DNA from: Diprion similis
Taxonomy: Eukaryota; Arthropoda; Insecta; Hymenoptera; Diprionidae
DNA length: 64,000 nt
Direction of reading: 5' to 3'
Assembly (NCBI RefSeq): GCF_021155765.1
Contig: NC_060109.1
Location: 2,877,001-2,941,000, forward strand
The notes below the pieces were generated by a model, which did no database searches, had not been told where the DNA came from, and was given only the letters and a program-made list of their open reading frames with translations. Shown here one piece after another: positions 6,101 to 39,480 of the stretch (its first letter is position 1; each line of letters begins with the position of its first letter). The translations under genes and the position numbers were made by a program.

Positions 6101-9100
6101 CAAATGTATAATTTAGAAAAATTTTCATCGGATCAGTGTAGTATTTATAAGTTGATATTTAACACTGTCGTTTTACATCTTGTGTTCTGTTCAGTACGGA
6201 TGGCTCGCAGCAAAACAGGATTTTAAATTGGAAAAATATGGTTCGTACATGTTTACGTATCCCATCGAAGAGCCGGTTTTAATACCAGGAGACTTCCCCA
6301 CTATTGCAGCTGGCAAGGGTTTCATTTGAAAGCTTATATCGCAGTTACATTGCTATGAATAAACTACTACTTGTAAAATATATCTATACACTATTCACAT
6401 GGAATTGATACACGAAATAAATCCTTTGTCAATAAATTCAACTGACCTTCACATTTATTGCCATTGGTGGTAAACCCTGCTGTGCAAACACAATCAGCTG
6501 AACTAATTGCAGGGCTCTTGATAGTAACGTGATTCAAGTCTGGACAAGGAATACAGGCAGCATTGGAATCTCCTGGGATATCACCAGGACTGAATGTTCC
6601 ATTTGGACAAACTGTAGGTAATGAAATCCACAAATCAATCCAATGGAAATGCCGCAGTGAAGAATTACGTGTGAAGTGATACGATGTGAAAATATATCTG
6701 GGTACCAACGTTGACAGGAACCATGAAATCCAGATCCAAAATAACCAGGGTGGCATAAACAGGCGTAGTGGCCAGTGGCTGTTCCGCAAGCACAAGATGC
6801 ATTCATGTCACAACACTGCGTCTCATTGATTTTAGTCGAATTATCGGAGCACAGTAAATCACAGTCTTGTAACGAATTAACTTTAATATATTCTCCGGTC
6901 TGCAAGTCTGTAATATTAATAATCGGTGTTATTCGTGTTAATATGAGTGACAACAACTATGAGTGAAAATTTTCTATACGAATCACCATGATGCAATGCT
7001 TTGCGAGCCAGTGACTCGAATTCAGGAAAACTGTCCAAGAGGTAGCTGTGAGCGTAGCCAGGTTCACTCGCTATGTCGTGCAACTCCCCAATATTTCCTG
7101 TTCGAATTCCGAAGGTGAAAACAACGACACCAGCGTTTTTTAACAGAGTGGCAGCTGGCCTAGGGTCTCCTCCGTTGCTAAATCCATCCGTTACCAGGAA
7201 AACAGCTGTACGGGCACCTAGTCGTCTGTGTTGTAAAATATCCTGCAATTATCGTGTTACTAGAGTTGATTGTATGAACAATATCTATGCGATGCAAAAA
7301 AGAAAGTTTTGATTTAAGAGAGATTTTCTCAATTATTGAATATTTAATAAAAAATTAAACTTGCTCTTAAAGCAAGATAGCACAAAAGTGATACAGCACT
7401 TGTGCTAAGCTAAGAAAGGCTTTTGCTTCTGTACTAAAATGAATTCAAAAAATAAGTATGTACTTATACGTCATCTGGTAAAAACAAATTTCGTACATAG
7501 AAATAACTTTTTCTCGGGTATTGGTGATTTTAAAAAGTATATAAAGTACTGAATTGATACTGTTTAGACAGAAACACAGCAGCTCTAAATAAGGACATTA
7601 ATCTGAAAAATGTAAGATGTCCGTCCGTTTTCTGAGTTTCTATTAAAATTGGAAACGAATTTAAATAATTATTTCGAAAGAAATTCTGAAAAACTCTGTA
7701 AATAACACAATTTCGAGATAAATTTGGCTAATAAATTGCCAATGTTTTTTTTTACAATTCCGAGATAACTTCAGTTGAATTGTTTACATACTTTACTTAT
7801 GAAATTTATAATACTCGTACAGTTTTCTGAAAGCTTGGTGAAATCCTTCGAAATTTCTGAGTATCTCTAAAAGGAAATTTAAACCTTTCTCATATCTCTG
7901 AGAAAAATTCCTCCGCCAGTGATATTTTACAATATTATAACAGAGTTCAGAATTTATTTTTGAGGATATGGTGTTATAATTTCGGAATTCAGAAGCAATA
8001 ATATTAGTGTGATTAATTAAAAAATACCATTAATCATTCCGATTTCTTTAGTTACTTCTTGTAACAATCACCGATTGATTCGTTACGACAAATGAAACAA
8101 TAATTCGATTCGAATTGAAGAGGAGACATAAAAAGGCTGTAGGGGGCCATGTTTTTTTTTTAATCCAAAGACAAAATAACTGTCGTTGACTTGACTGTTG
8201 AATATCAATGATTTCATTTACGCGCACAAAGAAACTCGCCTTGTGCAATATATTGATTAAGTACCTCCATTGTATCGAGTTTTAAGTTTCGATTTTCGAT
8301 ACCAAATTCATACTTGTAAATCAAGAAAATGTAAAAGACTTTTTTTATCTGTGATCAATAAAAAATCTTTTTGTAAATCTCGATATCCTGCCAGTAATAT
8401 TTACTAAATATCCACTGCATGACCTATAACAGTAACTATGCAGCGAGGAAAAAACAATTTTTCACCGTTTATTGAAATTTTGGTTGGCTGGCACTCATAT
8501 GAGCCTTTTTTTAGCTCTCCTCTTCAATTGCGTACTTACAAGGGCTTCGAGTAGAGCACCTCGGGTGTAAGTTCCACCGCCTGTGTATTCGATGCTTCCG
8601 ATCTGATGATTGAGCAAATTGCACTTATGATTGTCATCTTCGACGCTCGATATTTGATCCACATGTCGTATTACGTCGGTTTTTCCAGCAAAGGTCACAA
8701 CGGCAACCCGCGTGGCTTCTCTGGCTACGGTAAAATCTGCTAGCAATTTACGAACGAAATTCAACTCACTTCGAAAATTTTCCAAACCAACTGACGCCGA
8801 TGCATCAACAAGAAAAACCAGTTCCACCTGAAAGAATAATTATTATCACAGTTCTAGCCGTTATTTGTGATTTTGTCAATTACATTTATTCGATATTTTA
8901 ATCACAAATTTCAAATGTATTTCATTCTGGTGATATTTTCAATAACGACATTATACAGGAAAAATATCTTTCTGTATTATCAAAAACAGATTTTACAATA
9001 ATTGTGCAATGGAAAGTTTTGTATATACTTAATAAACCGTTTTACTTATAATTAGTCAATTAATTTACTAACTTTAATAATTTGTCATTTTCCTTATGAA

Positions 9101-11300: not shown

Positions 11301-12345
11301 GTAAGTTTTAATTTTTATTAATTAGTTTCTTACCATACACTCCGAGGATTTCTCGCCTAGCCGTCGCCTTACCAGTTAAGAATAATACATTACCTATTCT
11401 TGTTTCAATTTTTAGTCAAGCCTCAAGTTTAATCGACGAATTTCGTTCAGTGTCAGACGTTACGACCGTTCGAAAAACAAAAAAAACTCACAATCAGCCA
11501 AATATTATACAAGATTAATATCAACGCATTACGAAACGTAGCTTTATATCTCAATATCTCATTTATAGTTAGGTACTTTTTATTTAAACAACATCCCTTT
11601 TATTTCATTACATAAAACGGTAAAACTTCTGACATTCACAATCCGATTTTGAAAATCTGAAACGCCCTTTTCGTCACTTTAGAGCCACATATTTTCAAAA
11701 TGTCATTTTTTCTCGAAAAGCCGAAACCTGAGAGATTTTTTACGAGACATAGATTTGAACGCGATTGCAAAAAGCGAGAAGCGAAATTGATCGTTATTCT
11801 TCCTTTTTCGATGGTATAATTTTGTGGTAACAAGACTCCAAGCTGATCGTTAATCTCATTTTGATTCCTAGGGTTTCTAACTCTTTATGAAAGAAGCCTC
11901 TGCCGTGGCTAAAGGAGAAAGTACGATAGAAAGTTAATTTGGCGGAGATGTATTAACTTTGTTTGAAAAATAGCGATTTTACGTCAAAACAAGTTCGGAC
12001 CTCTTCAGGATATGATTCTAAAAAAGCTTAGCGCCCATCAATCGAAAACGAAGAAATTTCTTAGTTTGGACTCTATAATTAGAGAATAATTCTGCTGAAA
12101 CCTGCACTCATTCAATAATTTTTGAGGTCTATAATATGCTGAAGTGAATTTGAGAAAATCTGGATCGTATTTACCAAAATGATAACTAATTTTTTTCGTC
12201 ACGTTTTTAGATTAGATTTAAAACGTGTCTGAATCTTTGTTTTCCCACTTGTTGAGCTCAAATGATAGTACCACTCGTAAATTTTTTCTGAGTACAATGA
12301 AAAATCATCATAAATAACAGTATTTTCTAATCAAGGTTTACTAAG

Positions 12346-15300
12346 ATGCGATTCTTCCTGGTATTTGGTCTTGTGGTTTTCATTTCACAATGCTCTTGCA
12401 ATCCGATTGGAGTACGACCAGCGGGTCTCTCTTGGCAAAACGCTTCCTCCTGGGCTTCGGCGTTGACAATAAGAGTGAGAAAAAACACCGACGACAATGG
12501 GTACATCGAGGAATGTGCTCCGGTTCAAAGTTGGCAGGAAGAACCTGGGGTCATAAGCGTCATAGCATTTTTAGACGCGTCGTGGCAATACAGCCATCGA
12601 CAAGCCACCATGTAAGCACATTGCATTTATCTATCTTCATTTAGTATCCTCTCTGTTACTGCACAGTAGAATGTCAGTTACAAAACAATTGTAGAATTCG
12701 TAGAATTCGTCAAAGTGTCAAGGAAGGCTGATGAGAATGGCGCTGAATTTTTATTTGCTTCAAGTATTTTCGCAGAATAATAATAATCAGAATTGTCAGC
12801 GAGAACATTAATTGAATCGTTTGAATTCATCTTCCAACAGAAGTTCTAAGAATTATTAAGACGCTGGAAAAAAGAAAAATATTAATGAACTTGGATTATT
12901 CAACTTTCTTTATCTTATTTTTAGTCCACAAATCATCAGTTTTTCTCCCATTATCTATTTACAATAGAATAATATTAGGGTAATAAAGAAATGAATATTC
13001 TTGCAAAATATATTCAATAAATTCTTGACTTGACCTTATTTGGTTCTCATCATTTCAATATCCATTTGCTACAAATGAAAATGACAACCAAGCATCTGAT
13101 CTACATCAGTGCTATAAAAAAGATGAATTGATGCAACTTTGGGAAGTATTGCATGATATCGTAGCGCCAGTGTTAGCAAAATCGTCTATACAAGTGACGA
13201 TTGACGCATTGTCAAAAAATGCTGAAACTGCAGCATTAGCATAATGCTGATAACCCGAGGTCAGGAATATGAAGAAAACTTCAATGACTTAGTTTCCTAT
13301 GAACATTTTTCTCGGGTATATAAACATTTGTGCAATTATTCCAGAATCCGTCACTTCATATTATTAATTTATATCAATTCTATTGACGACAATTTCTGTG
13401 AAACGATTAATTAAAATAATTATAAGTTTGCAAGAGTGACTGAAGTTAGAAACTCCAGCTACTACAAAATTTACCTGTCGGTATCAAATTCAAAAGAACA
13501 CAATTTCGTGCTGATACTAAATTTTTTCGAACTAAATCATTTTTGTTGAAACAAATGTTTCACGCAGAATTGAAATTTTATATAAATGGATAGGATTACG
13601 AGAGGAAAGATTTTTCACGTACTTAAAAACCAGCAGAACAAATTTAAGTCGACAAGGAAAACGAGAGTTTAACTAATATTGGTTATTGAGATGAGAAAAA
13701 AAATTTCTGCAGCTCGGATTTCAGTTGATTTACACTATTTTGAGTTACGATAATTTATTTACAGGCTCAAAACACTTCAAGGTCTTTTAGAAAAGACTGG
13801 TATAAAAGGTATCCGATTTTATGTCGTAAATTCGTCGGAGCCAGAAGCTACAGTTAGCGCTATTGAAGTAGAAGACGAAAAAGAAGCTTGGGGAGCAGCG
13901 GATCTGGCAGAGGATAAACATTTTTTGAAGATAGAACGAACTAGAGAAGCCTTAAAGAACAAGATCGACCCAAATATAGAATTTATTCAAGATACGTCGG
14001 AGCTGAAAATTTGGGAAAAGTTATCTGCATCGAGGGATCAAGTTTTAGTTATAGATAAGTACGCGGCCGATATCTTAGAATTCGAAGAATAAAACTACCC
14101 TCTAATTCTAACAGTCTGTTGAAATTCTTCTTAGGTGCCGAAGGCTGAGTTACAGAGTAATAGTGCCATGGAGCATATTACATTTTCCCTATGTTAAAGC
14201 TGCAATTCTTTCAACTTACAAAGAACAGCCATGCGGAAGCTGTAACATTAGTCAAACGGAGAGTGAAGCAGATATTGCCACTGAAACAATAATGACTACG
14301 ATTGAAAGTGAAAAAACTAGCACTGAACAGCCTTTGGAATCCCTACCAGAGAACTTAAATATTGATCATATGAGAGAAATTGCTGTTAAAAAGTATAATC
14401 TTGATGCCACCGATAATACCGCAACAAAAAAATATCATGCTAAAGAGTCCCAGGATATTCCAGAGAGTGTTATAAAACTTTTAAATGGGAGTGCCAATAT
14501 ACAAAAAGGTATCAATATCGCTGATCTATTACCAACGACAGTTGCAAATTTGGATGACAGCCATGCGATCAGCTATTTACAAACTCCGATTCCAGAAGCA
14601 GAGAATAAACAGCACCAGAATACTTCCAACATTACGGACACTCCGAATGTTGATAACAATACAAAAATAGTACAGCCTGACAGTAATTTATCAGAAACAC
14701 TTTATAACGATAACAGTGATAATTTGGAACTGTTAATGCCTCAGGGAATGGAAGAAAATTCAACGGATCGCTATAGTGAAGAGGATGAAATTGATTATCT
14801 TGACAATGAACATGACCGGCGCAAGCTTGGAAACTATGAAGCCCTCAAATTGAAGAGTGGTTGGGAAAATAAGGATGGAGAAGAAAGTTCAGAGATAAAT
14901 CCTTATTCATCAAACACTAACGAATCCAGCAACAGTCAGAGTAATGAGAGCAGCTCAGAGATGAAAGTTTCAAGTCCGCTAGAAGCATTGTTCGAGAATA
15001 AAACTGCTAATCATATAAACAGAACAGCACAAGAATTCGGAGAAATGAATTCCGAGGAATATTCGCAGAATGCGGACTACTTGATGCCAATTAGGATAAT
15101 AATGCACGCACCTCACAGGCATGCATACGATGAGACATTCAAGACACATGAATACCTGGTCCTAAAACTTGGAAGGCCAGAATATCACGGGCATTCGCCA
15201 TCTGACGAAGACTTATTTGGGACAAATGAAAACAAACCAAATTCTGAAAATAACGATGACAGTGAGGAAGGCGACAAAACAGAGCCTGGTAGCGAAGAAT

Positions 15301-15821
15301 ATGAAAACAATGATAACAAAAACCACCAACACCATGGCAATCATCATCAACATCATCACAAATCAGATCAAAAGAAGGACAAAGATGATCATCTGGACAT
15401 TATTTACTATAAAGATGAAAGCCCTGGTTTTTACGGAGAAGATGCAGAATATTGGAAAGACCCTGAGAACGTAGAATATGACGAAAAGCTAGAAACGGAA
15501 CAAGCTGATAAGAAGACAGGACATGTAAAGGTGATTTTACCACTTCATTGGGTTAATCGATGCCCTGAGTATCAGTTCGAATTATAATTTCAATTTTAAT
15601 TTTAGGGTACACAAGATGCTGTGAATTTTGACGAGGTAAGTATCGATAGCGCAACTGCCAAGGAGAGTACATTCACAAATCCGCTTGAGGAAAAATCAGA
15701 GGAAGATACCGCCATTGATGATCAAATTATAAAAGATATTATCGAAGAGGAGGCCAAGACAAATCGTCTAATTGAACATTACAGTAAGCTTATTCCATGG
15801 CTGGACTATGTATTCGATTAA
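12346..15821 (+). CDS. SELENOP-like: Selenoprotein P-like secreted protein without selenocysteine
   Basis: Exons 12346-12611, 13765-14058, 14135-15530 and 15606-15821 give about 723 residues with closing phases. Residues 1-20 form a signal peptide. Residues about 45-235 match the thioredoxin-like N-terminal domain of vertebrate selenoprotein P: VISVIAFLDAS, then FYVVNS, VLVIDKCRRLSYRV, LHFPYVKAAI and a closing CGSC. At the redox site the vertebrate A-S-U-x-x-C reads A-S-W-Q-Y-S; the Sec codon position holds TGG. The rest (about 480 residues) is Asp/Glu/Asn/Ser-rich and disordered-looking, with a His-rich patch (HQHHGNHHQHHH, near 15328-15360), a feature also seen in vertebrate SELENOP. No in-frame TGA remains. 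Not splicing the 75-base intron 15531-15605 ends the protein at TAA 15585-15587 with another tail (about 670 residues). It is probably a secreted glycoprotein; a metal-binding or carrier role is inference. Confidence 0.85.
13029..13244 (+). other. Unexplained 71-codon open stretch in intron 1 of the SelP-like gene
   Basis: A frame open from 13029 to TAA 13242-13244 reads like protein rather than intron (for example KKDELMQLWEVLHDIVAPVL). It has only an internal Met, and I could not pair it with convincing splice sites in phase with exon 1. It may be an alternative exon, an old exon or a retropseudogene piece. Family not recognised. Confidence 0.25.
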
Positions 15822-15843
15822 TAACTTATCGGCATTTGAAATT

Positions 15844-15849
15844 AATAAA
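15844..15849 (+). terminator. Poly(A) signal AATAAA of the SelP-like gene
   Basis: Canonical AATAAA 23 bases after the stop of the spliced form. The 3' untranslated region would be very short if this site is used. Confidence 0.55.
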
Positions 15850-16129
15850 TTAGTTTTTCCTTATAAATCTAGATATTGTGAGTATTTGACAAAGCTCACT
15901 CTGTAAATACTTATGTCATGTTCAACAGTAATCCTTGTATGTTACCTTTCATGCATATCCTTCATAAGTACTTTCGAAGATCAGGTGTATATACAATAGT
16001 TTTCTTTAGCAAACTATCTTGTAACGTAATTTAAGTAGTTTAAAAATCTGTGATCAGGTGAAACATAGAATTTGTGAGGTGTGCTGTTTTGGTCGAAGTA
16101 GGAAACCGGTTACACCTGTGGATCAGTTT

Positions 16130-16135
16130 TTTATT
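16130..16135 (-). terminator. Candidate poly(A) signal of SHQ1
   Basis: TTTATT on plus (AATAAA on minus) about 450 bases beyond the SHQ1 stop. Other AT-rich hexamers nearby could serve; weak assignment. Confidence 0.25.
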
Positions 16136-16581
16136 CAACCTCTCCGATGGTTGGCGAATTTTATAGCGGTCTAAAATTACTTTAAACCAGTGATAACTAT
16201 CTTTGCACACAACAACAATTACTTTTTGTACAAATTTAAGACCGCAATATATGACAAATCAAAACCATAATTTTGGTACGAAAATGATACGTCTAAAGGA
16301 TAGCCATGAACTAGTATCTTTTGGATAAATTTAAATAAATAAACAACCGGTAGAAATGTAAATACAGCGGAGAAAAAAAACTTCTTCAAGTTAACTCTGG
16401 ATTTCATAAAAAATATCCGTCCTTATATTATATATCCTATGATTCCGATATATACTATTATACATATTACATATATCACTTGCAGTACGTAGATCTTTTT
16501 TTTTCCTGATTAATACAAAAATTGATCGATTTTGTTTTCATTGTCGAACTAATAGATAAAACTATCAGGTTTACTTGAAAA

Positions 16582-19500
16582 TCATTCTACTTCGCTTGTG
16601 TCGTCGGAATCGAGACTTTCCTCAGTACTTGTGCTTGATGAACTGCTACTGTCAGATTCTGTATCAGAATCAGTGTCGCTGCTATCCGACGAGCTTGAAC
16701 TTCCTCTCCGCAATCTAAAATGATCGAATATAATAAAATAATCAAATTATATAAGTTCAATGATCAATAATACCGTAAATTCGTTAGTTCTCTCCAATTA
16801 GTTAATTACTAACATTCCACATACACGCACTCATGTTTTATAATTCACTTTTAACAGTGGCTTTTACAGAGAAGTTATGAAAGAAGAGCTGTAAGGCGAA
16901 AAAATGCATAACCAAACGAATATAATAATTGTCTAAGGTGAAATGCTTTAACTTCCCAAAAAAAAAACTCAAAGGCCGTAATAGAAATATCAGGAACAAT
17001 GATAAGCATAACGTGACAGAGAACAGAAAATATTCGCCGAGGAAAAGAAAACACTCTAAACAACATGTAAAGGATAGTTAAAAAAAACTGTATTGAAAGT
17101 AGCCGTAAATTGTTATAGAAAAAATTTAGTTACTAGTGATGGAGTTAAGTATCTTTTTTTTTTGTAGTCCATCATCTATTCACAAGGAATCATATATACA
17201 AAAACGTTTAGTCTTTGATTAAACAGTCTTTCAAAAATAATTAGTATTATTAAAAATCAAAATGAAAACTCTTTTCAATTAAATTTTTACCATATTTTGT
17301 AAAACTTACAAATAGTCTAAGAACTTTTTGCTCTCCATGGTGTACGTGAATTTAGGCCTTTAAAAATAGATTAAATTATCGTGGCAATTAGGTTCTATAT
17401 ATTATAATTCTAACTTTAATATGAGACTTTCAATATCAACTGAAACAATTTTCGCCCCATACAATTTGAATATATCTACATAATTAGCAAACTTGACAGC
17501 GCTCATCAAATAAAAAATTATACATGTCTATATTAGACTGCTTGAATTAATTTGAGGACAGAGAATTGGACCAAAATCTATGACAGTAAGATAAATGTGT
17601 TGGTAAGTTAATACGGGCCAGAAATAAATTGAGTAGAACAATCTAATTGTTTACACAGCTGGAAACAATTTACCTCGCAACTTCTACTGAAGAAACATTA
17701 AAATCATCGATCTAACTACATGGATTGTATACAAGTACGATACATAATTATCGAATCGTGATCTGTTCCTAAAACATTAGCATTCCAAAGATAATCAACT
17801 TACTTCTCATCGTTCTTTTCGTTTAATGCCAAGTTGTCTACTTCGTCGACCATTTCATGAATTGCATTTTCTATAACTAGGTCTTCATCTCGAACAGAGA
17901 AAGCAGCTGCTTCTAATTCAACAAGGTCCAAGCCCATTTCGACTTTGTTTGGATGTATCTGGAACCAGAGCAACAAAGTAAAAGTGAGTATGTGAATAAA
18001 TGGGATGGAAACTTAGAGAATCACGAAATTTTTTTTAATTGACAATCAGGAATTACCGTACTCAACGATGCACTGAGAGATTCAATTAAAGAGAATGGTG
18101 TTTGCTGCAACCAAATCAAGTAGTCCTTTATATACAACTGATTCAGGATGTATCGTGGTTCGTAGGAATTGTTGAAGAGCTCGTGTATTTCACACAAACG
18201 TTTCACTACAAATTTCTTTCCTGAAGATAAGAAGCGTAATTTCACGTCAGCAAACTGAGAACCAATCGTTAAGATTTGAAATTATTTCACAAACGGACTA
18301 TTCACAAATATTTCTACAAACCTAAAGTTAGAACTATTTTAACATCGTCAAATACTTTTACAGATAGCTCCCAGTTTCTGTACAATGGGTAACACAAAGA
18401 TCTCCGCACACAAGCAGTAACAACCTCTTCCAGATTATTGAACTCCTATAACATTGGGAAATTACATTTATGTAAGAATCTACATGAAACATCATTACAA
18501 AATTGGAAACTTTCGAATACTTAAATTTCCGATTTTCTCTCAAGTTTACTTCATCAATTAATACCAATTGTAACTTGCCTGAAACCAGCAAAGCGTAGAA
18601 CTCAATTTATTTATCGTCCATCCACTTTCTACTGTATTTTCTCCCATGGTTGTCCTATGATTGTAACAACTGGCAAATAAAATGTCAACTAAGCCAAAAG
18701 AGACTTTTTCTACTTCTTTGCTATCCAACAAATACTCTTTGTTCGGTAGTTCTTTCAGTAAATCTTTTTCTATATCCGTAAGCGTGATTTCTGTGCTTTT
18801 CAAGCTCTCCCATTCTGCCTTGAAATCAATGTACGGTCTGATGTACTCTTCCTGAATTAAATCAGCCATATAATGTTCTTCACTGAACTGTTCCAATTCA
18901 TGCTTTTGCCTTAAACATGCACGCTCGATGGGAGGTGTGGCATCGGGTGCTGGCAGATCTATTATTTCACCTGTCCACCCTGACTGAAATCAAAAAAATT
19001 ATAATAAACGATGTCCCGATTGAAAACTGATCACTACGTTTGGTAGTCGAAAACTCACAATTATGCTCAGCATCTGACTTGTTTTCAACTACTTTTATTG
19101 CTTTTGTGAATTGTCTATTGAATGGAGAACCAAAAAAACTAAATAACCGACCTACCAAAGTTCATTCCGTAAGAAATCTATCAATAAAGCCAAAACATAC
19201 AAAGTATTTTAACAATCGCAGTACTTCTTGACTTTTTCTTCTGTGAGATCATTTGAGATCCCCTGTAAACTTAGGTCTTTACAAGGATTGAAAGACACAC
19301 TGTTTGCTGTATACAAGGCAACTGAAAGTGAAAAATGGCGAATGTTAATTGGAAACTGTAGAAATTTTGTCTTTATTAATAATGCATGTACTTTGAAAGT
19401 TTAAACGCGAAACGTGATGCTAAATTTTAGTGAAAGAACTTCCTAACAACACAAGCATAAATTTGTATTAACAAGCATGTATCCGTAATTATAATTGATC

Positions 19501-24170: not shown

Positions 24171-27100
24171 ACCTATGTGAAGCTGGCCTGCAACTTAAGA
24201 TTTTTGAAATAATTAATATACCAAAAAATTGCTCCCGATTTGCTCTTAATTGCTCCGTACTTTTTATTAATTGCTCCCGCATGGATCCAGAGAAAAACTA
24301 AAAAAATGAAAACCGAAAAAAAAACTGAAATCTAGGGAAATTCTTTAAACGCGGTTTTTGGCTAAACGGAAGGGATTTAAAGGATCTTCTGTGCGGCAAA
24401 AAATTGCTCCCCGTATGCACTTAATTGCTCCACCGTCAGATTTAATGAATTCGCATTCGTTATCGAAAAAAAAAGGAAAAATGCAATGTGACCATAAAGT
24501 AGTGGGGGGTGGGCTAACTTCACAACCGGCTTGAAACAAGCCTGACGAACAAAAATTAAAAAATAATTATACTAATTAATTGCTCCTGATTTGCTCCTAA
24601 TTGCTCCGTAGTTTCCATTATTTGCTCCCGCATAGAGCCGGAGAAAAACTAAAAACAAAAAACCGAAAAGAAGAAGAATCTAGGGGAAAATGGCTGGAAC
24701 GGAGTAGGAAATAGATATTTGCGTCTATATGAATGAAATACATCAGAAAACAATTGCATTTGTATTGCTTTAATTTGCTCTACCTTTATTTCTAATTGCT
24801 CCCTCGTAATTGCAGAGTTATGAAATGATTAAGCAAGCTAGATGACGACATAACCCTACTTTTGATCGGACTCCGTTATACGGAATAAAAAAGGGACAAT
24901 TGGGCTTATATGCATAAAATGAATCGAAAACGATTGCTTTGCTATTGCTTTAATTTGCTCTATCTTTATTTGTAATTGCTCCCTCGTATTCACAGAGTTA
25001 TAAGATGATTAACAAGCTCGATGACGACATAACCCTACTTTTGATTGGACTCCGTTATACGGAGTAAAAAAGGGACATAACCCTACTTTTGATTGGACTC
25101 CGTTATACGGAGTAAAAAAGGGATAATTGGGCATATATGCATAAAATAAATCGAAAACGATTGCTTTTTTGTTGCTTCAATTTGCTCCACCTTGATTTTT
25201 AATTGCTCCCTCGTAATCGCAGAGTTTTAACATGATAAACAGGCTTGATGACAACATAACCCTACTTTTTGGTCAGCCTTCGTCATTAGTTAATCATCTT
25301 AAAAATCCCGATTACGAGGGAGCAATTCAAAATAAAAGTGGAGCAAATTGGAGCAACAAAAAATCAATCGTTTTCTGATTTATTTCGTCCATATATTCCC
25401 AATTATCCTTCGCTTTTACTCCGTATAACGGAGTCCGATCAAAAGTAGGGTTATGTTGTCACCGAGTTTGGTAATCATATTATAACTCAGCGAATACGAG
25501 GAAGCAATTAAATATAAAGGTAGAGCAAACTGAAGCAACAGAAGAGCAATCGTGTTTTGATTTATTTTATGCATACATACCTAAATATCCATCACCTTCA
25601 TCGTAAAACGGAGTCCGATCGAAAGTATGGTTATATTGTCATCGAGCTTGCTAATCATCTTAAAACTCCACGAATACGAGGGAGCAATTAGAAATAAAGA
25701 TGGAGATAATTAAAGCTTCACAAATTCAGTCGTTTCCTGATTTATTTCATCTATATAAACGCAAATATCTATTTCCTACTCCGAATGACGACGGCCGATC
25801 TAAAGTTTATGTTGTCGTCGAGCTTATTGTTAATCATCTTGTAACTCCGCAATTACGAGGGAGCAATTAAAAATAAAGACGGAGCAAATTGAAACCGCAG
25901 GAAAGCAATCGTTTGCCAATTTATTTCATCCATATATGCCCAATCATCCCTCTTTTACTCCGTATAACGGAGTAGATCAAAAGCAGGGTTATGTTGTCGT
26001 CGAGCTTGTTAATCACTTAAAAATAAAGATGGAGCAAATTGAAGAAACAGAAGAGCAATCGTTTTAGGATTTATTTTATGTATATATACCTAAATATCCA
26101 TCACCTTCATCGTTGAACGAAGTCCGATCAAAAGTATGGTTATGTCGTCATCAAGCTTATGTTAATCATCTTGTAACTCCGCGAATACGAGGGGAGCAAT
26201 TAAAAATAAAGATGGAGCAAATTGAAGCAACTGAAAAGCAATCGTTTTCTGATTTATTTTATCCATAAAGACTCAATTATTCATTTCCTACTCCGTATGG
26301 TGGATTCCGATCAAAAGGAGGTTATGTTGTCATCAAGCTTGTTAATCATCTTGTAACACCGCGAATACGAGGGGAGCAATTAAAAATAAAGATGGAGCAA
26401 ATTGAAGCAACAGAAAAACTATCGTTTGCCAATTTATTTCATCCATATATGCCCACTTATCCCTCTTTTATTCCGTATAACGGAGTCAATCAAAAGTAGG
26501 GTTATGTTGTCATCGTGCTTGAGAATCATCTTAAAACTCCGCGATTACGAGGGAGCAATTAGAAATAAAGGTGGAGCAAATTAAAACTACACAAATTCAG
26601 TCATTTCCTGATTTATTTTATCTATACATAGATGCGAATATCTATTTTCTACTCCTAATGACGAAGGCTGACCAAAAAGTAGGGTTATGTTGTCATCGAG
26701 CCTGTTTATCATGTTAAAACTCTGCGATTACGAGGGAGCAATTAAAAATCAAGGTGGAGCAAATTGAAGCAACAAAAAAGCAATCGTTTTCGATTTATTT
26801 TATGCATATATGCCCAATTATCCCTTTTTTACTCCGTATAACGGAGTCCAATCAAAAGTAGGGTTATGTCGTCATCGAGCTTGTTAATCATCTTATAACT
26901 CTGTGAATACGAGGGAGCAATTACAAATAAAGATAGAGCAAATTGAAGCAATAGCAAAGCAATCGTTTTCGATTCATTTTATGCATATAAGCCCAATTGT
27001 CCCTTTTTTATTCCGTATAACGGAGTCCGATCAAAAGGAGGTTATGTCGTCATCTAGCTTGCTTAATCATTTCATAACTCTGCAATTACGAAGGAGCAAT

Positions 27101-27723
27101 TAGAAATAAAGGTAGAGCAAATTAAAGCAATACAAATGCAATTGTTTTCTGATGTATTTCATTCATATAGATGCAAATATCTATTTCCTACTCCGTTCAA
27201 GCCATTTTCCCTAGATTCTTGTTCTTTTCGGTTTTTTGTTTTTAGTTTTTCTCCGGCTCTATGCGGGAGCAAATAATGGAAACTACGGAGCAATTAGGAG
27301 CAAATCAGGAGCAATTAATTAGTATTATTATTTTTTAATTTTCGTTTGTCAGACTTGTTTCAAGTTGGTTGTGAAGTTGGCCCACCCCCCACTACTTTAT
27401 GGTCACATCACATTTTTCCTTTTTCTTTTCGATAAAGAGTGCGAATTCATTAAATCTGATGGTGGAGCAATTAAGTGTATACGGGGAGCAATTTTTTGCC
27501 GCACAGAAGATCCTTTAAATCCCTTCCGTTTAGCCAAAAACCGCGTTCAAAGAATATCCCTAGATTTCAGTTTTTTGTCGGTTTTCTTTTTTTCAGTTTT
27601 TCTCCGAATCTATTCGGGAGCAATTAATAAAAAGTACGGAGCAATTAGGAGCAAATCGGGAGCAATTTTTTGGTACATTAATTATTTAAAAAATCTTAAG
27701 TTGCAGGCCAGCTTCACATAGGT
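24171..27723. mobile_element. 3.55 kb non-autonomous foldback transposon
   Basis: The ends are inverted: ACCTATGTGAAGCTGGCCTG at 24171 and its complement ending at 27723. About the first 34 bases are identical and roughly nine in ten match by eye after that. Terminal segments of about 530 bases (24171-24700, 27200-27723) are studded with TTGCTCCC / GGGAGCAA words. Inside, units of about 180 bases repeat, each carrying CTCCGTTATACGGAG-type palindromes and TAATTGCTCCCTCGTA. Three units point one way (about 24720-25285); about eleven point the other way (about 25300-27180). Left arm 24171-25285 therefore pairs with 26640-27723. A 48-base block is duplicated exactly in tandem at 25027-25122. No long frame, so non-autonomous. 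Long tandem-repeat arms and a 9-bp duplication are the marks of Drosophila FB elements, which are mobilised by a Mutator-related (MULE-NOF) transposase; membership of that superfamily is inference. Confidence 0.85.
25027..25122. repeat. Exact tandem duplication of 48 bases inside the foldback left arm
   Basis: 25027-25074 and 25075-25122 are identical (ACATAACCCTACTTTTGATT onward) and each includes the CTCCGTTATACGGAG palindrome. The matching place in the right arm (about 26820-26860) has one copy. Confidence 0.93.
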
Positions 27724-32135: not shown

Positions 32136-35100
32136 ATGTACAAACAATCAAGATCGGGCATGACAATGTCTGCAAAACATCTGGTCCCAGAAAACCTGGA
32201 ATTTTCAATGTTTACCAACGAGGATATTCGCAATTTAAGCGTTACAAAAATCAGCACACCTTTGTCCTTTAACATTTTGGGCAATCCACTGAAAGGCGGG
32301 CTCTACGACCCAGCGTTAGGTAACGATTCTATTTTCTCTTAAGAATACTACTCTTACAACCATGTAAAAAAACTATTTTAAATTAATTTAAATAGTTTTT
32401 AATTGCTAATGTATTAACTGAATCGAAATAATCCTGTCTTTGTTTTAGTTTTTTAAATATTCAGCATGTTTAATCGTATTGAAACATTCATTTCAAGGTC
32501 CAGTGAGCGAAAAGTCAGATCCCTGCGGAACATGTGGCGGAAATATAACAAAATGTTCAGGACACTTTGGACATATAGAGTTGCCACTGCCAGTAGTAAA
32601 TCCGTTATTCCACAAGCAGTTGGCTAGCATCATTAAATTGACTTGCTTGCGTTGTTTCAAACTGCAAGTACCAGAGCCTATGAAACTGTTGTTGGTAGCT
32701 AAAATAAAACTGTTGGACGAGGGCTTTGTCTCAGAGTTTAGTGATTTGGAGCAAGAAGTTCAATCCATTATAGCTGCGGGCGGCGAAGATACTGGAATCG
32801 TTGAATTCGTGAAGGAAGTTATTGAGGCTCACGTAGAGAGGCTCCATAATCGTCAGAAGCTAAATCACATTGTGCCCCTTCTTTCTGAAGAAAATCGTTC
32901 TAATGCAAGAAATGTTAATATGCAACGATGGATGCACGTTGAAAATATACTCAGACAATTTCAACCTGGACATATCTGCATACATTGTCAAGATAGTATC
33001 CCAAAAATTAGTACGTTCAGAAACCGAATTATGACCACTAAATCAGCCAATGATGAACCGGATGAAAGGTAAGCCATTAGGAGACTGATATGAACAATTC
33101 ATATGCTTCTCTCAATTTGAGAAATTTCCACTGGACTATTTGTATTTTAATATCATACAGAAAAGTCATTTTTAAACTTCGTAATGAACTGGAACTTGTT
33201 TTTCATATGTTCAACGATGTATATTGGATACCAAAAATCCACGCAACTAGTCTTAGTCCCCAATTTAGCTGTAAATTTTGGAAACTTATAGATATTTAGA
33301 ATATAGGTCCATCTCGTTAAAATGTGGAATGATATCATATTCAGTAAAATCTAAGAAATTCTAAGAAAGTAACGTTCTCGTGGATTAATTACTGTTTCAG
33401 CAAAATTAAACGAGGAATCGTTAGACGATTGGAAACTGTTCTGATGATGCCAGACCAGTCGCAAAAGTATTTGCGTGAGCTCTGGGATACGGAAAGAGAT
33501 GTATTGAAAATAATAATGCCTTGTTTGAGTACAGTGCATACGGAATATCCAACAGACATTCTTTTCTTCAGTATAATACCTGTACTTCCACCGATCGTAA
33601 GGCCAGTTAACTACATCAATGGACAACTGATAGAACATCCTCAATCCCAAGTCTATAAAGCTATTATACAGGACTGCTTGGTGCTCAGAAACATTATACA
33701 AACAATTCAAGATGGAGATACTTCAAAACTTCCCGAAGAAGGCCGAGTAAGTGAAGGAATTACAATTGTCCAGAGTAATTTCATATGATCTCATCGGTCA
33801 AACTTCACTTTACAAATTTTCTCTGACCATTTTGTAGATGGTTTTTGAACAAATAAGAGGAAATTCGCCGTCAGAAAAACTTCATAATGCTTGGCAGCAG
33901 CTCCAAGCAAACGTCGATCATCTGATGGATCGTGACGTAAACAAAACGACGGAATCAGCAAACTGTCAGGGGCTGAAACAGGTGATTGAGAAAAAAGAGG
34001 GCATTATTCGCATGCACATGATGGGGAAGAGGGTGAATTTTGCAGCCAGATCAGTCATCACTCCTGATCCCAATTTAAACATCGACGAAATTGGTATTCC
34101 CGAAGCTTTCGCTTTGAAGCTGACCTATCCAGTTCCAGTAACACCTTGGAATGTTGCCGAATTGCGACAAATGATAATTAACGGACCAAACGTCCATCCA
34201 GGGTAATTTATTTCTACATTCCAAGCATTTTTTTCACATCTGTATATTATTTTTAAATAATTGAATCGTAGGAACTGAAACAAACTTTTGCATAGCATAG
34301 TTTTTTTTTTATCCTCTTCGGAATGAAAAGATAGTAATATTTCAAGAGCAATACTACTTGATTTTTCAAATAAGTAAATAATTTAAGCATTCGTCACTGA
34401 AAACAGTTATAAAAATCTATGTAAAAAATTTCTACTACTTTAATCCATTTATTTAAATTCTAGGGCAGTTATGGTGGAGGGTGAAGATGGCTCAACAACG
34501 CGTATTAGCGCGAGTGCAGCTGTGCAAAGAGAATCAATTGCCAAACGACTTTTGACCACAAGCGTTAAGGCGACCAAATTTTTTAATGGCATAAAGATAG
34601 TTCACCGTCATTTACACAATGGAGATATATTGCTTTTGAATCGTCAGCCAACCTTACACAAGCCAAGTATCATGGCCCATAAAGCCAGGATATTGAAAGG
34701 GGAGAAAACGTTGCGCCTTCATTATGCAAATTGTAAAGCTTACAACGCCGACTTTGACGGTGATGAAATGAACGCGCATTTTCCACAAAACGAACTTGCC
34801 CGAAGTGAAGGATACAATATAGGTAAACCTGTGAATGTCTCCAAAATTTTCTGCCAGTGTAAATCATATAAAATTCTAATGCCAAACCATTTCATAAATT
34901 TTTTTAGCCAACGTTTCTAGCCAGTACCTCGTCCCGAAAGATGGTACACCGTTGAGCGGCTTGATTCAAGATCACATGGTTTCTGGAGTACGTTTGACAC
35001 TCAGAGGAAAATTCTTTTCAAGGTGATTATTACAGAACTTTTTAATATCAAAGTAAAATCTAAAAATTGACTTTTGTTTTATATCAACAAAACTTTTGTC

Positions 35101-38100
35101 TCCAGAGAAGACTACATGCAGTTAGTTTACTGCGCATTATCAGATATTCAGGGTGATATAACGCTATTACCACCTGCCATTATCAAGCCAGAGTTATTGT
35201 GGTCTGGTAAACAGTTATTATCAACAGTTATAATTAATGTTACACCACGTGGCAAAGCAAAGATTAATCTTACCGCTAGTGCAAAGATTGGCCCAAAAGC
35301 ATGGGAAGCTAGGAAGCCGCGACGTTGGAAATGCGGCACCGAATTCAGTGATCCAAAAACAATGTCAGAAGCTGAAGTAGTTATACGTAGTGGCGAACTG
35401 CTATGCGGCGTGCTCGACAAAATTCATTATGGCGCTACACCTTATGGACTGATACATTGCGTATACGAGGTTCGTACATTTAGATTTTGTAATTCATTTC
35501 AACAGAATGTATCATTTTTTCAATACTATTGATGTAAATCTCTGAAACAGCTTTACGGTGGTACATACTCAAGCAGGATGCTGAGTGCGTTCGGAAAATT
35601 ATTCCAAGCATTTCTTCAGAGAGATGGCTTTACTTTGGGAATAGAAGATATCTTGATTCTTTCAAACGCTGATGAAGAACGTACGAAATTCATCGAGTCA
35701 TGTAGAAAGGTAACAATGACACTTTACATCAATAAGATATGGAAATTGAGCTATTCAAAATTTAAAATGCAAGTAGAATTCGTAACTTCCATGGAACCAC
35801 GTCTAGCTTCACAGAAATTCTAATGAGAGGGTGCTTGTGTAATATGTTGTACGATTGCAGAAAATTCTCTGAGGACTATAGAATATAATAGAACTCCAGA
35901 TGGTTTCCTAAGACTTTCCTCGTCATTCAAGATCAATTTCAATCATTTGAGACTGTTTTAGAATGTGCATACTCACTTTTGTCTTCTGGGTTGTGTATAC
36001 TTGCTTACTTCGTATTCTGGGAAACAGATCTGCCAAAAGGAATGTTAAATTACAAGCCTGTCTGACCTGTGTACTCAATTTTCACTCAAGACATGATTTA
36101 CACCAGATCTACAATATATTCATCCTGTATTGTCATATATTAGGTAGGCGAAAGTACCCAGAAATCGGTGCTCGAGTTGCCTGAAGAGACACCGATGACA
36201 GAAGTAAAATCAAAAATACAAGAATCATACTTGAGAAATTCTAAGTTCCAAGCGCAAATCGATCGTAAATACAAAACTGCTCTGGATGTCTATACGAATG
36301 ACATAAACAAAACATGCCTGCCAGCTGGACTCCTTAAAAAATTTCCGGATAATAATTTGCAACTTATGGTTCAGTCCGGGGCTAAAGGTTCGACTGTTAA
36401 TACCATGCAGATTTCTTGCCTACTTGGGCAAATTGAATTGGAAGGAAAGAGACCGCCGCTAATGATCAGTGGCAAAAGTCTTCCCTCTTTCGCTGCTTAT
36501 GATCCAACGCCAAGAGCTGGCGGCTTCATTGACGGTCGTTTTATGACAGGAATTCAACCCCAAGAGTTCTTCTTCCATTGCATGGCAGGCAGAGAAGGGT
36601 TGATTGATACTGCGGTGAAAACCAGTAGATCTGGATACTTGCAGAGGTGTTTAATCAAGCATTTGGAAGGCTTAACCGTCAGTTACGATTCAACTGTTCG
36701 CGATTCTGACGGCAGTTTAGTTCAGTTATATTACGGAGAAGATGGGCTTGATGTACCGAGTTCTCAATTTCTAAAAAACGAGCAACTGGATTTTTTGGTC
36801 CATAATAGAAATGCGATTGTTGAAAAGGAATTGCTAAGCCGTCTCAAAGACGATCTGAGCACTGAGAAAATCTTGAAGACAGGACGGAAAATGCAAAAGT
36901 GGATGAAGAAACACGGTGATCCCTTACAGAAGCGTCGCGCAAGCGAATTTGCCAAATTTTCTGAAAAAAATCGACTAGATGATCCCAAGTACAAAAAGAT
37001 CAATAAAGTTTGCGGCAGAAGCAAGGGTGCATTACGTTTGATGAGAGAATGGGTAAATATTGACAAAGAGACGAAGGAAAGTTACAAGTGCTCGCGATGC
37101 CCTGACCCTGTGATTTCAAAGTACAAACAGGACTCCAACTATGGAGTTCTAACGGAAAGAATAGAAGGCTTGATAAACGATTATCTGTCAAAAAGGAAAG
37201 TCGAAAAGTCTGCAGATATATCCGAAGACGAACTCAGAGATCTCTTATCATTCAAAGTAATGAAGACCCTTTGCCAGCCCGGAGAGCCCGTAGGATTACT
37301 AGCAGCGCAATCAATCGGCGAGCCGTCAACGCAGATGACGTTGAATACTTTCCATTTCGCGGGACGTGGTGAAATGAACGTAACCCTCGGAATTCCGAGA
37401 TTACGAGAGATCCTTATGATGGCCTCGAAGAATATAAAAACACCCTCGATGGAAATTCCATTTAGGCAGAGTCTTGAAAATCTAGAAAAACAATCGGATA
37501 ACTTAAGACTAAAGTTAACCCGATGCACTTTGTCAAACGTCTTGAGAAGTATTGGTGTGGACGGAAGATTAGAAATTGAACCTCAGAGAAGGATGACTTA
37601 CAAGTTGATGATAAAATTCTTACCTCACAAAAGCTACAAACGAGAATACTGCGTAGGACGCAAGTACGTTTTACAAGCAACGGAATATTTCTTCTTCAAA
37701 GAACTGTTTAAAGAAATAAAAAAAGCAGCTCAAGTATCCGGGGCTTTGTTGTATAGTGAGGAGAACAAGGAATCAGCTAACGATGATCAACTAGACGCAG
37801 ATGACCCTGAAAGTGTGCCTAGCAATTCGACTAAAGGGAGACTAGATTTTGGGGAAATGCACGAATCTTCTGACGAAGACGAAGCTGCCGAGGATGCAGA
37901 TGCGACTGCAGCTAGATCACTTTCCAGACACAAAGAAAGTCAGGAATATGATGACCCTGAAGAAACGAACGACGAGTCTGATGAAAACGAAGATGAGAAA
38001 AAAGAGGATGACAAAACTGTGTCAACTGAATCAAATGGAGGTGCAGAGACAAAGAACAATGAGTTCAAAAATATGATTACAGAGAAAAGGAAAAAACTAA

Positions 38101-39480
38101 TTGTTGACATGTACCCCCATGCTATTGAGTACAACTTCGACGATAGGAAATATTTATCATGCGAATTAAAGTTCTGGGTAGGTATTATAGTTAGAAAAAG
38201 TTAATATTGATCGTACTAATATACATGCTATTATAAAAATTCATTTTTCAGCTACCTTTGAAAATGACAAAACTGGACTTATCTACGATCATTAAATCTG
38301 TCGCAGAAAAGGTCGTATTATGGCAAACGCCTCAGATAAAGCGAGCATTTACATTCCAAAATCTGAACAATGAAACTGTTCTGAAAACTGATGGAATAAA
38401 CATTGTAGTAAGTATACAATCGTAATTATATTTCAATTGTCCTCGATATTATGTAAAGTACTCACCAAAAACAGTACACGAAGTAAAACTGAGGTCTCCG
38501 TTATAGTTTTCCAATTAGATTCCAGAAATGTCCTACTTTTCATATTTACAACAGCTTTAATAGCTGAAAATTATTTTCAAACGGCAATTTTCATATCGCT
38601 ACACATTTGATATTATGAAAAGATTGCATCGTTGGCATTCTCGCTATAAAATTTAAAAAGATGGTCATAGCAAAACGTTTAGCAAGCTAATTTTTCCAAA
38701 ATGTTACTAAAATAGTTTGCCTAGCATCGTAAAGACAATTGTCTAATCTTGTTGCTACTTATGGTTTGAAAATATTAACTCGTTTTATTTCTTCCTCAGG
38801 AAATGTTCAAATACAACGAAATCCTAGATCTCAACAGATTATACTCTAACGACATATATGGGATTGCACAAACCTACGGCATTGAAGCAGCGAATAGAGT
38901 GATAGTAAAAGAAGTGAAAGATGTGTTTAAAATGTACGGAATTACTGTAGATCCGCGACATTTGCTTCTGATCGCTGACTACATGACTTTTGATGGAACT
39001 TTCCAGCCGCTAAGTCGTAAAGGAATGGAGAACTCTGCATCTCCCCTCCAGCAAATCAGTTTTGAGAGTTCGCTCACCTTCCTGAAGAATGCTACGCTAC
39101 ACAGTAAGCAGTCGTATTATTAAATTTTGTTCAATCCTTCAAAAATCTAAAAATAAGATCAGTCCGCGAATAAGACGACGAGGACCAATTTGGTGGGTGC
39201 TGTCAACGACGAAAAACCTTTGCTTATGTTCGGAACAATACGGTATATAATATAGAGAAAACCGTAATTAAGTGCACCATTGACATTTGCATAAAGATTG
39301 GTTTTTCATCCACAGTGGAGTCGAACTTTCAATGTTTTTTCACTACAATTATTCATTTCAGACAAACGAGATGACCTCGTCTCACCATCCAGTCGCTTGA
39401 TGATCGGTCAACCTTGCAAATCTGGGACAGGATCATTTGATTTGATGCATAGAATGGAAATGTACATTCCGAGTCAGTGA
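32136..39480 (+). CDS. POLR1A: RNA polymerase I largest subunit
   Basis: Catalytic subunit of RNA polymerase I, transcribing pre-rRNA in the nucleolus. Twelve exons: 32136-32319, 32498-33068, 33401-33746, 33838-34202, 34464-34822, 34908-35022, 35106-35469, 35551-35709, 36144-38177, 38252-38407, 38800-39103, 39362-39480; 1,691 residues (human 1,720), all phases closing, TGA at 39478-39480. The N-terminal clamp has a zinc site, [20 protein letters not shown]. The active-site loop is [14 protein letters not shown] in exon 5, with the Mg-binding D-F-D-G-D. Downstream come [12 protein letters not shown], the bridge-helix/funnel region ([20 protein letters not shown]), the trigger-loop region ([34 protein letters not shown]) and the C-terminal cleft ([40 protein letters not shown]). 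An acidic Asp/Glu/Ser insert (about 37790-38030) matches the expander/jaw region. In-frame Mets at 32160 and 32166 are alternative starts; the first ATG was taken. Confidence 0.98.

Follow-up and report, generated by a model that had tools for sequence, protein, structure and literature searches.

Tryptophan and serine in place of the redox pair of a selenoprotein P-like domain in Diprion similis and other Hymenoptera

The gene and its altered site

We analyzed a stretch of 64,000 nucleotides from contig NC_060109.1 of Diprion similis (the window, whose numbering is used for all coordinates; residue numbers are those of the Diprion protein). A four-exon gene on the + strand spans 12346 to 15821 and encodes a product of about 720 amino acids, probably secreted, that carries the N-terminal domain of selenoprotein P (SelP_N). 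The predicted protein is 100% identical, over the searched region, to a database protein of the same species, P0013 ("protein PFC0760c-like isoform X2"); P0013 has 718 residues and our model, which uses its own exon 3 end, has 721. Exon 1 (12346 to 12611, +), supported by its frame, a GT donor, and identity with P0013, holds the start codon, a hydrophobic N-terminus presumed to be a signal peptide (a helix at residues 2 to 14 in the AlphaFold model), and, from the SelP_N domain, the first strand and the beginning of the active-site helix. At the selenocysteine (Sec) position of this domain lies Trp80, encoded by TGG at 12583 to 12585, and at the position of the partner cysteine lies Ser83, encoded by AGC at 12592 to 12594. 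An earlier note on this DNA had proposed both replacements; it had put the TGG codon at 12573 to 12575, which is not its place, and had framed the feature as 12598 to 14230, an interval that starts after the codon and runs from the last part of exon 1 through intron 1, exon 2, and intron 2 into the beginning of exon 3.

That the domain is SelP-like was confirmed in two ways. Pfam SelP_N (PF04592) matches the Diprion protein with an E value of 1.1e-25 and 90.8 bits, against a cut-off of 23.2. The pairwise score with human SELENOP was 199, whereas 300 shuffles gave a mean of 32, a standard deviation of 5, and a maximum of 57. The three blocks on which the resemblance had first been noticed are real and read VIAFLDAS, VIDKCRRL (across an intron), and LHFPYV in Diprion. 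Searches by sequence of the Protein Data Bank gave chance matches only. The thioredoxin-like fold of the SelP family is present in the predicted structures, as had been supposed, and in the AlphaFold model Trp80 directly precedes the helix that bears the active site in thioredoxin folds.

The placement of the site does not depend on the tryptophan itself. A profile of 37 hymenopteran rows aligned with human SELENOP in a single gapless stretch of 48 columns, with W over U and S over C; masking the W column left this alignment identical, and no better alignment with Sec elsewhere emerged. DRCG-, FPYV-, and CGxC-type blocks are common to the human protein and the profile. Where the SelP N-domain has U-x-x-C, Diprion thus has W-x-x-S, and the C-x-x-C that TlpA and ResA carry at the start of the active-site helix is likewise replaced by W80 and S83. 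There is no in-frame UGA at the former Sec position, of the kind known from SPS1, and the gene has an open frame to TAA with no in-frame TGA.

Distribution across Hymenoptera

Two protein searches, with 12 and 39 rows, together yielded 49 different proteins (alignment A1), all of which match SelP_N at an E value of 0.001 or less. Of the 49, 46 were taken as hymenopteran, nine by similarity alone. The site is covered by 37 of the 46; the other nine, whose models are truncated or different there, were set aside. When orthologues were tabulated, as the earlier note had recommended, residue 80 was Trp in 33 of the 37, Gln in three, Lys in one, and Cys in none, and residue 83 was Ser in every row, so that both members of the U-x-x-C pair are replaced throughout. 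The Gln rows come from Microplitis and two Cotesia (Microgastrinae) and the Lys row from Ceratosolen. Two of the Trp rows, P0032 and P0036, are placed among ants in the tree. A third protein search, using an alignment led by a caddisfly protein, added only two Timema species and Xylocopa; the Xylocopa protein (P0051, outside A1) also has Trp at the site.

A tree of 39 rows can be explained with only two changes among W, Q, and K: Q is confined to one clade (support 100/98) and K to a single tip. Its two non-hymenopteran rows are long branches, which makes the rooting unreliable. Most simply, Trp80 would be ancestral to living Hymenoptera, because parasitoids, ants, and bees have it and so do Diprion, Neodiprion, Cephus, and Orussus. 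The Trp form characterizes the order as a whole and is no oddity of a single genome. All four Timema models lack the site exon; in P0046, P0050, and P0052 the model starts downstream of it, and in P0045 unrelated sequence takes its place. This is compatible with an in-frame TGA at the site but proves nothing.

Constraint on the protein

Trp80 is the majority residue, with 89% of rows. Of the 167 columns between residues 57 and 223, 47, W80 included, reach at least this level of conservation. There are 23 fully conserved columns, and Ser83 is among them. In the linker (residues 230 to 499), the median majority is 22% and the maximum is 68%. The cysteines of the domain are also kept: Cys57 (12514 to 12516) in 36 of 37 rows, with a gap in the remaining one, and Cys188 (14136 to 14138) and both cysteines of the CGxC-type pair Cys220-Gly-Ser-Cys223 (14232 to 14243) in all 37.

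Three conserved C-terminal blocks follow the linker in the alignment. The first, with the pattern RIIMxAPHxH and YHxH, occupies residues 500 to 545 in Diprion (15072 to 15209; IRIIMHAPHRH ... EYLVLK ... YHGH). The second, DESPGxYGExAxYW, corresponds to residues 614 to 627 (DESPGFYGEDAEYW, 15414 to 15455), and the third, HYSKLxxW, lies at the end of exon 4 (HYSKLIPWLDYVFD, 15726 to 15818). Every block has exceptions, such as an Asp in Nasonia for the second His of the first block; the first and third are recognizable in Timema and the caddisfly. A model of the Fopius protein shows three strands in the first block and a helix in the last. No Sec or Cys occurs in the C-terminal part of the Diprion protein, and a His-rich run is seen in the sequence at residues 584 to 595 (15324 to 15359). 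Since the four other cysteines and the three C-terminal blocks are conserved, the protein is constrained and probably functional, and it does not have the look of a decaying remnant.

Selenium machinery

The gene sits in a lineage that is reported to lack selenoproteins. The bumblebee genome paper describes all Hymenoptera investigated as lacking them, with tRNA-Sec, eEFsec, and pstk absent from bumblebees and SecS, secp43, and SBP2 kept (PMC4414376). Mariotti et al. 2015 likewise call Hymenoptera selenoproteinless and describe an SPS1 there in which an in-frame UGA is retained and presumably read through (PMC4561486). An older count gives one selenoprotein in honey bee (PMC2375036).

In our own searches, no match to the families of selenocysteine insertion sequence (SECIS) elements was found in 12000 to 17500. 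A fossil SECIS hairpin after 15821, which the earlier note had thought worth scanning for, was not found: in a loose scan for SECIS-like folds from 15822 to 18000, the best value was −14.0, which does not stand out from 20 shuffles that averaged −12.6 and went as low as −18.0; together with the lack of a family match this led us to reject it. With a tRNA-Sec model run on the genome (53 of 11439 first-look candidates scored), nine places were returned, with none over the cut-off. A hidden tRNA-Sec was rejected, as ARAGORN, applied to eight of these places, calls all eight tRNA-Ser.

A review from 2020, citing Baclaocos et al., reports a single Sec in the SELENOP of certain insects (PMC7435645). 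It is therefore likely that Sec was the ancestral state in insects, although we saw no insect TGA at the site. The change from TGA to TGG takes one step, as had been pointed out.

Gene structure and neighborhood

All parts of the gene lie on the + strand. Exon 2 (13765 to 14058) has AG and GT borders, is identical in P0013, and encodes the middle of the SelP_N domain. Its DNA has a single place in the genome (269 Mb, 60 contigs), although diverged paralogues could escape a DNA match. Exon 3 (14135 to 15524) encodes the end of the domain, the disordered linker, and conserved C-terminal blocks. Exon 4 (15606 to 15821) includes the stop codon. At the exon 3/4 junction (15501 to 15530 and 15597 to 15612), three residues (TGH) from the 3' end of exon 3 are skipped in P0013, and the window has no GT donor where P0013 would splice; the P0013 gene model or the splice site is unusual here. 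Codon 189 (14139 to 14141), next to Cys188, is CGA (Arg) in Diprion. Residue 189 is Gly, as in the DRCG motif, in 36 of the 37 hymenopteran rows, Neodiprion among them, and Arg is a Diprion-specific change.

Among the other hymenopteran proteins, Anthophora plagiata has two with SelP_N, P0028 and P0043, which suggests a duplication; the P0043 model lacks the site. Elsewhere in the window, coding pieces match an ephrin-receptor-like repeat (6391 to 6804, −), an SHQ1 domain (18561 to 18989, −), and RNA polymerase largest-subunit domains (32449 to 38201, +). Tandem arrays of approximately 179- and 227-base units, with 10.6 and 1.9 copies, occupy 24847 to 27169.

Discussion

We favor, as the probable explanation, that the N-domain became a noncatalytic, secreted binding or scaffold module after the U-x-x-C pair was lost, with its fold kept. 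A new job in binding or transport, as the earlier note suggested, is an inference. The loss of U-x-x-C chemistry is well supported; this chemistry would be impossible because no nucleophile or resolving thiol is left where the active-site helix begins. The Sec position would have become Trp (TGG) no later than the last common ancestor of living Hymenoptera, and the partner Cys would have become Ser or was Ser already, while the thioredoxin-like fold was retained. We imagine that the side chain of Trp80 packs into or caps the former active-site groove, and that the domain works by binding instead of catalysis. Structural disulfides among C57, C188, C220, and C223 could hold a secreted scaffold together, joined by a disordered, glycosylatable linker to the C-terminal blocks, and the binding partner of the domain and of blocks such as RIIMxAPHxH and YHxH might then be a metal, a ligand, or a receptor.

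Several observations weigh against this explanation. Sec was not directly observed in the ancestry of Hymenoptera. Trp is not essential: three Microgastrinae have Gln in its place and Ceratosolen has Lys. The redox site of the SelP_N protein of the caddisfly Arctopsyche grandis (P0047) is shorter by two residues and has no Cys, so the site seems to be altered outside Hymenoptera too. Finally, with four cysteines conserved, thiol chemistry could still occur elsewhere. The domain retains the thiols of C57, C188, and C220-G-x-C223; with these kept, a redox or disulfide role elsewhere is possible.

One version of such a role is that redox function was kept and moved to C220/C223 at the end of the domain, with W and S marking an abandoned first site. 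C220 and C223 are invariant in all 49 A1 rows, outgroups included, and the pair reads CGPC in many of them; CGPC is the thioredoxin motif. However, the human domain has the same pair, as CGNC, beside its UxxC, and so the pair is not a new acquisition. The model places it beyond the last domain helix (205 to 217) and not at a helix start, and the four cysteines that it forms together with C57 and C188 would suffice for two structural disulfides. We consider a relocated redox function fairly unlikely. It is also improbable, in our estimate, that the site simply drifted under weak constraint after Sec loss, leaving Trp as a tolerated leftover without a role while the Cys-rich and C-terminal parts maintained the protein. 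The Gln and Lys replacements and the two-residue deletion in the caddisfly would fit with drift, as would the observation, reported for several insect genomes, that just the part of SelP corresponding to exon 4 is found, with nothing upstream (PMC2397514). Against it, Ser83 is present in 37 of 37 rows and W80 in 89%, compared to a median majority of 22% in the linker. The conservation of W80 is not conclusive on this point, because so many domain columns are at least as conserved.

An artefact that conceals a Sec or Cys codon, be it a sequencing error, a wrong alignment, or editing, is practically excluded. The earlier codon coordinates were ten bases off, and the nine hymenopteran rows set aside do not cover the site, but 33 of the 37 rows, which come from different genome projects, agree on the residue. 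P0013 is identical at the site, Neodiprion and 31 further rows have W, and the gapless profile alignment is independent of Trp; on these grounds sequencing error and misalignment were rejected.

One can envision that Trp was first supplied by readthrough, with near-cognate tRNA-Trp decoding the SelP UGA once the Sec machinery failed in the hymenopteran stem, although we regard this as distinctly unlikely. The route is conceivable because TGA and TGG differ by one base and because Trp, along with Arg, is reported to be inserted at the readthrough UGA of human MDH1 (PMC5133446). A Trp-bearing protein that was already useful in a nonredox capacity would then have been fixed by the change to TGG, and the new binding site would have persisted in most of the order. 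SPS1 with its kept UGA (PMC4561486) might represent an unfixed version of the same process.

The domain family, the absence of selenoproteins in Hymenoptera, and the database names "Selenoprotein Pa" and "Pb" for some of these proteins are already known. We found no description of a Trp form, in line with the earlier note, or of an order-wide loss of both redox residues in the literature searched, which did not cover the survey of Baclaocos et al. 2019, where these genes may be listed. The Diprion protein shares with SELENOP the Pfam domain above cut-off, the predicted thioredoxin-like fold, and TlpA/ResA relatives, but it has Trp and Ser for Sec and Cys, other C-terminal blocks, and no SECIS that we could find. 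The Cys homologues of insects that lost Sec also keep the gene with a sense codon at the Sec position (PMC4561486), whereas the hymenopteran SelP_N proteins have Trp, Gln, or Lys. A non-Cys fate of a former Sec position is also reported for the UGA of hymenopteran SPS1 and for the Arg of SPS1 in other insects, in both cases among insects without selenoproteins (PMC4561486), although the former keeps a UGA and the Diprion SelP codon is TGG. Short insect SelP homologues, as described from mosquito for example (PMC2397514), are limited to the Cys-rich region of exon 4, which follows the thioredoxin-like part; the hymenopteran proteins share this region but add the upstream thioredoxin-like part with its changed site.

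The usual fates of a selenocysteine are to be kept, to be swapped for cysteine, or to be lost with its gene. Here an insect order keeps the gene with a residue incapable of the chemistry, and the partner Cys is gone too. The SelP fold is thereby separated from its redox role, which provides a natural test of what tasks the N-domain has besides redox. Ant and bee proteins named "Selenoprotein Pa" or "Pb" should not be taken as selenium carriers. If Sec was the ancestral state, the family would be a sequence-level record of one selenoprotein outliving the loss of selenocysteine.
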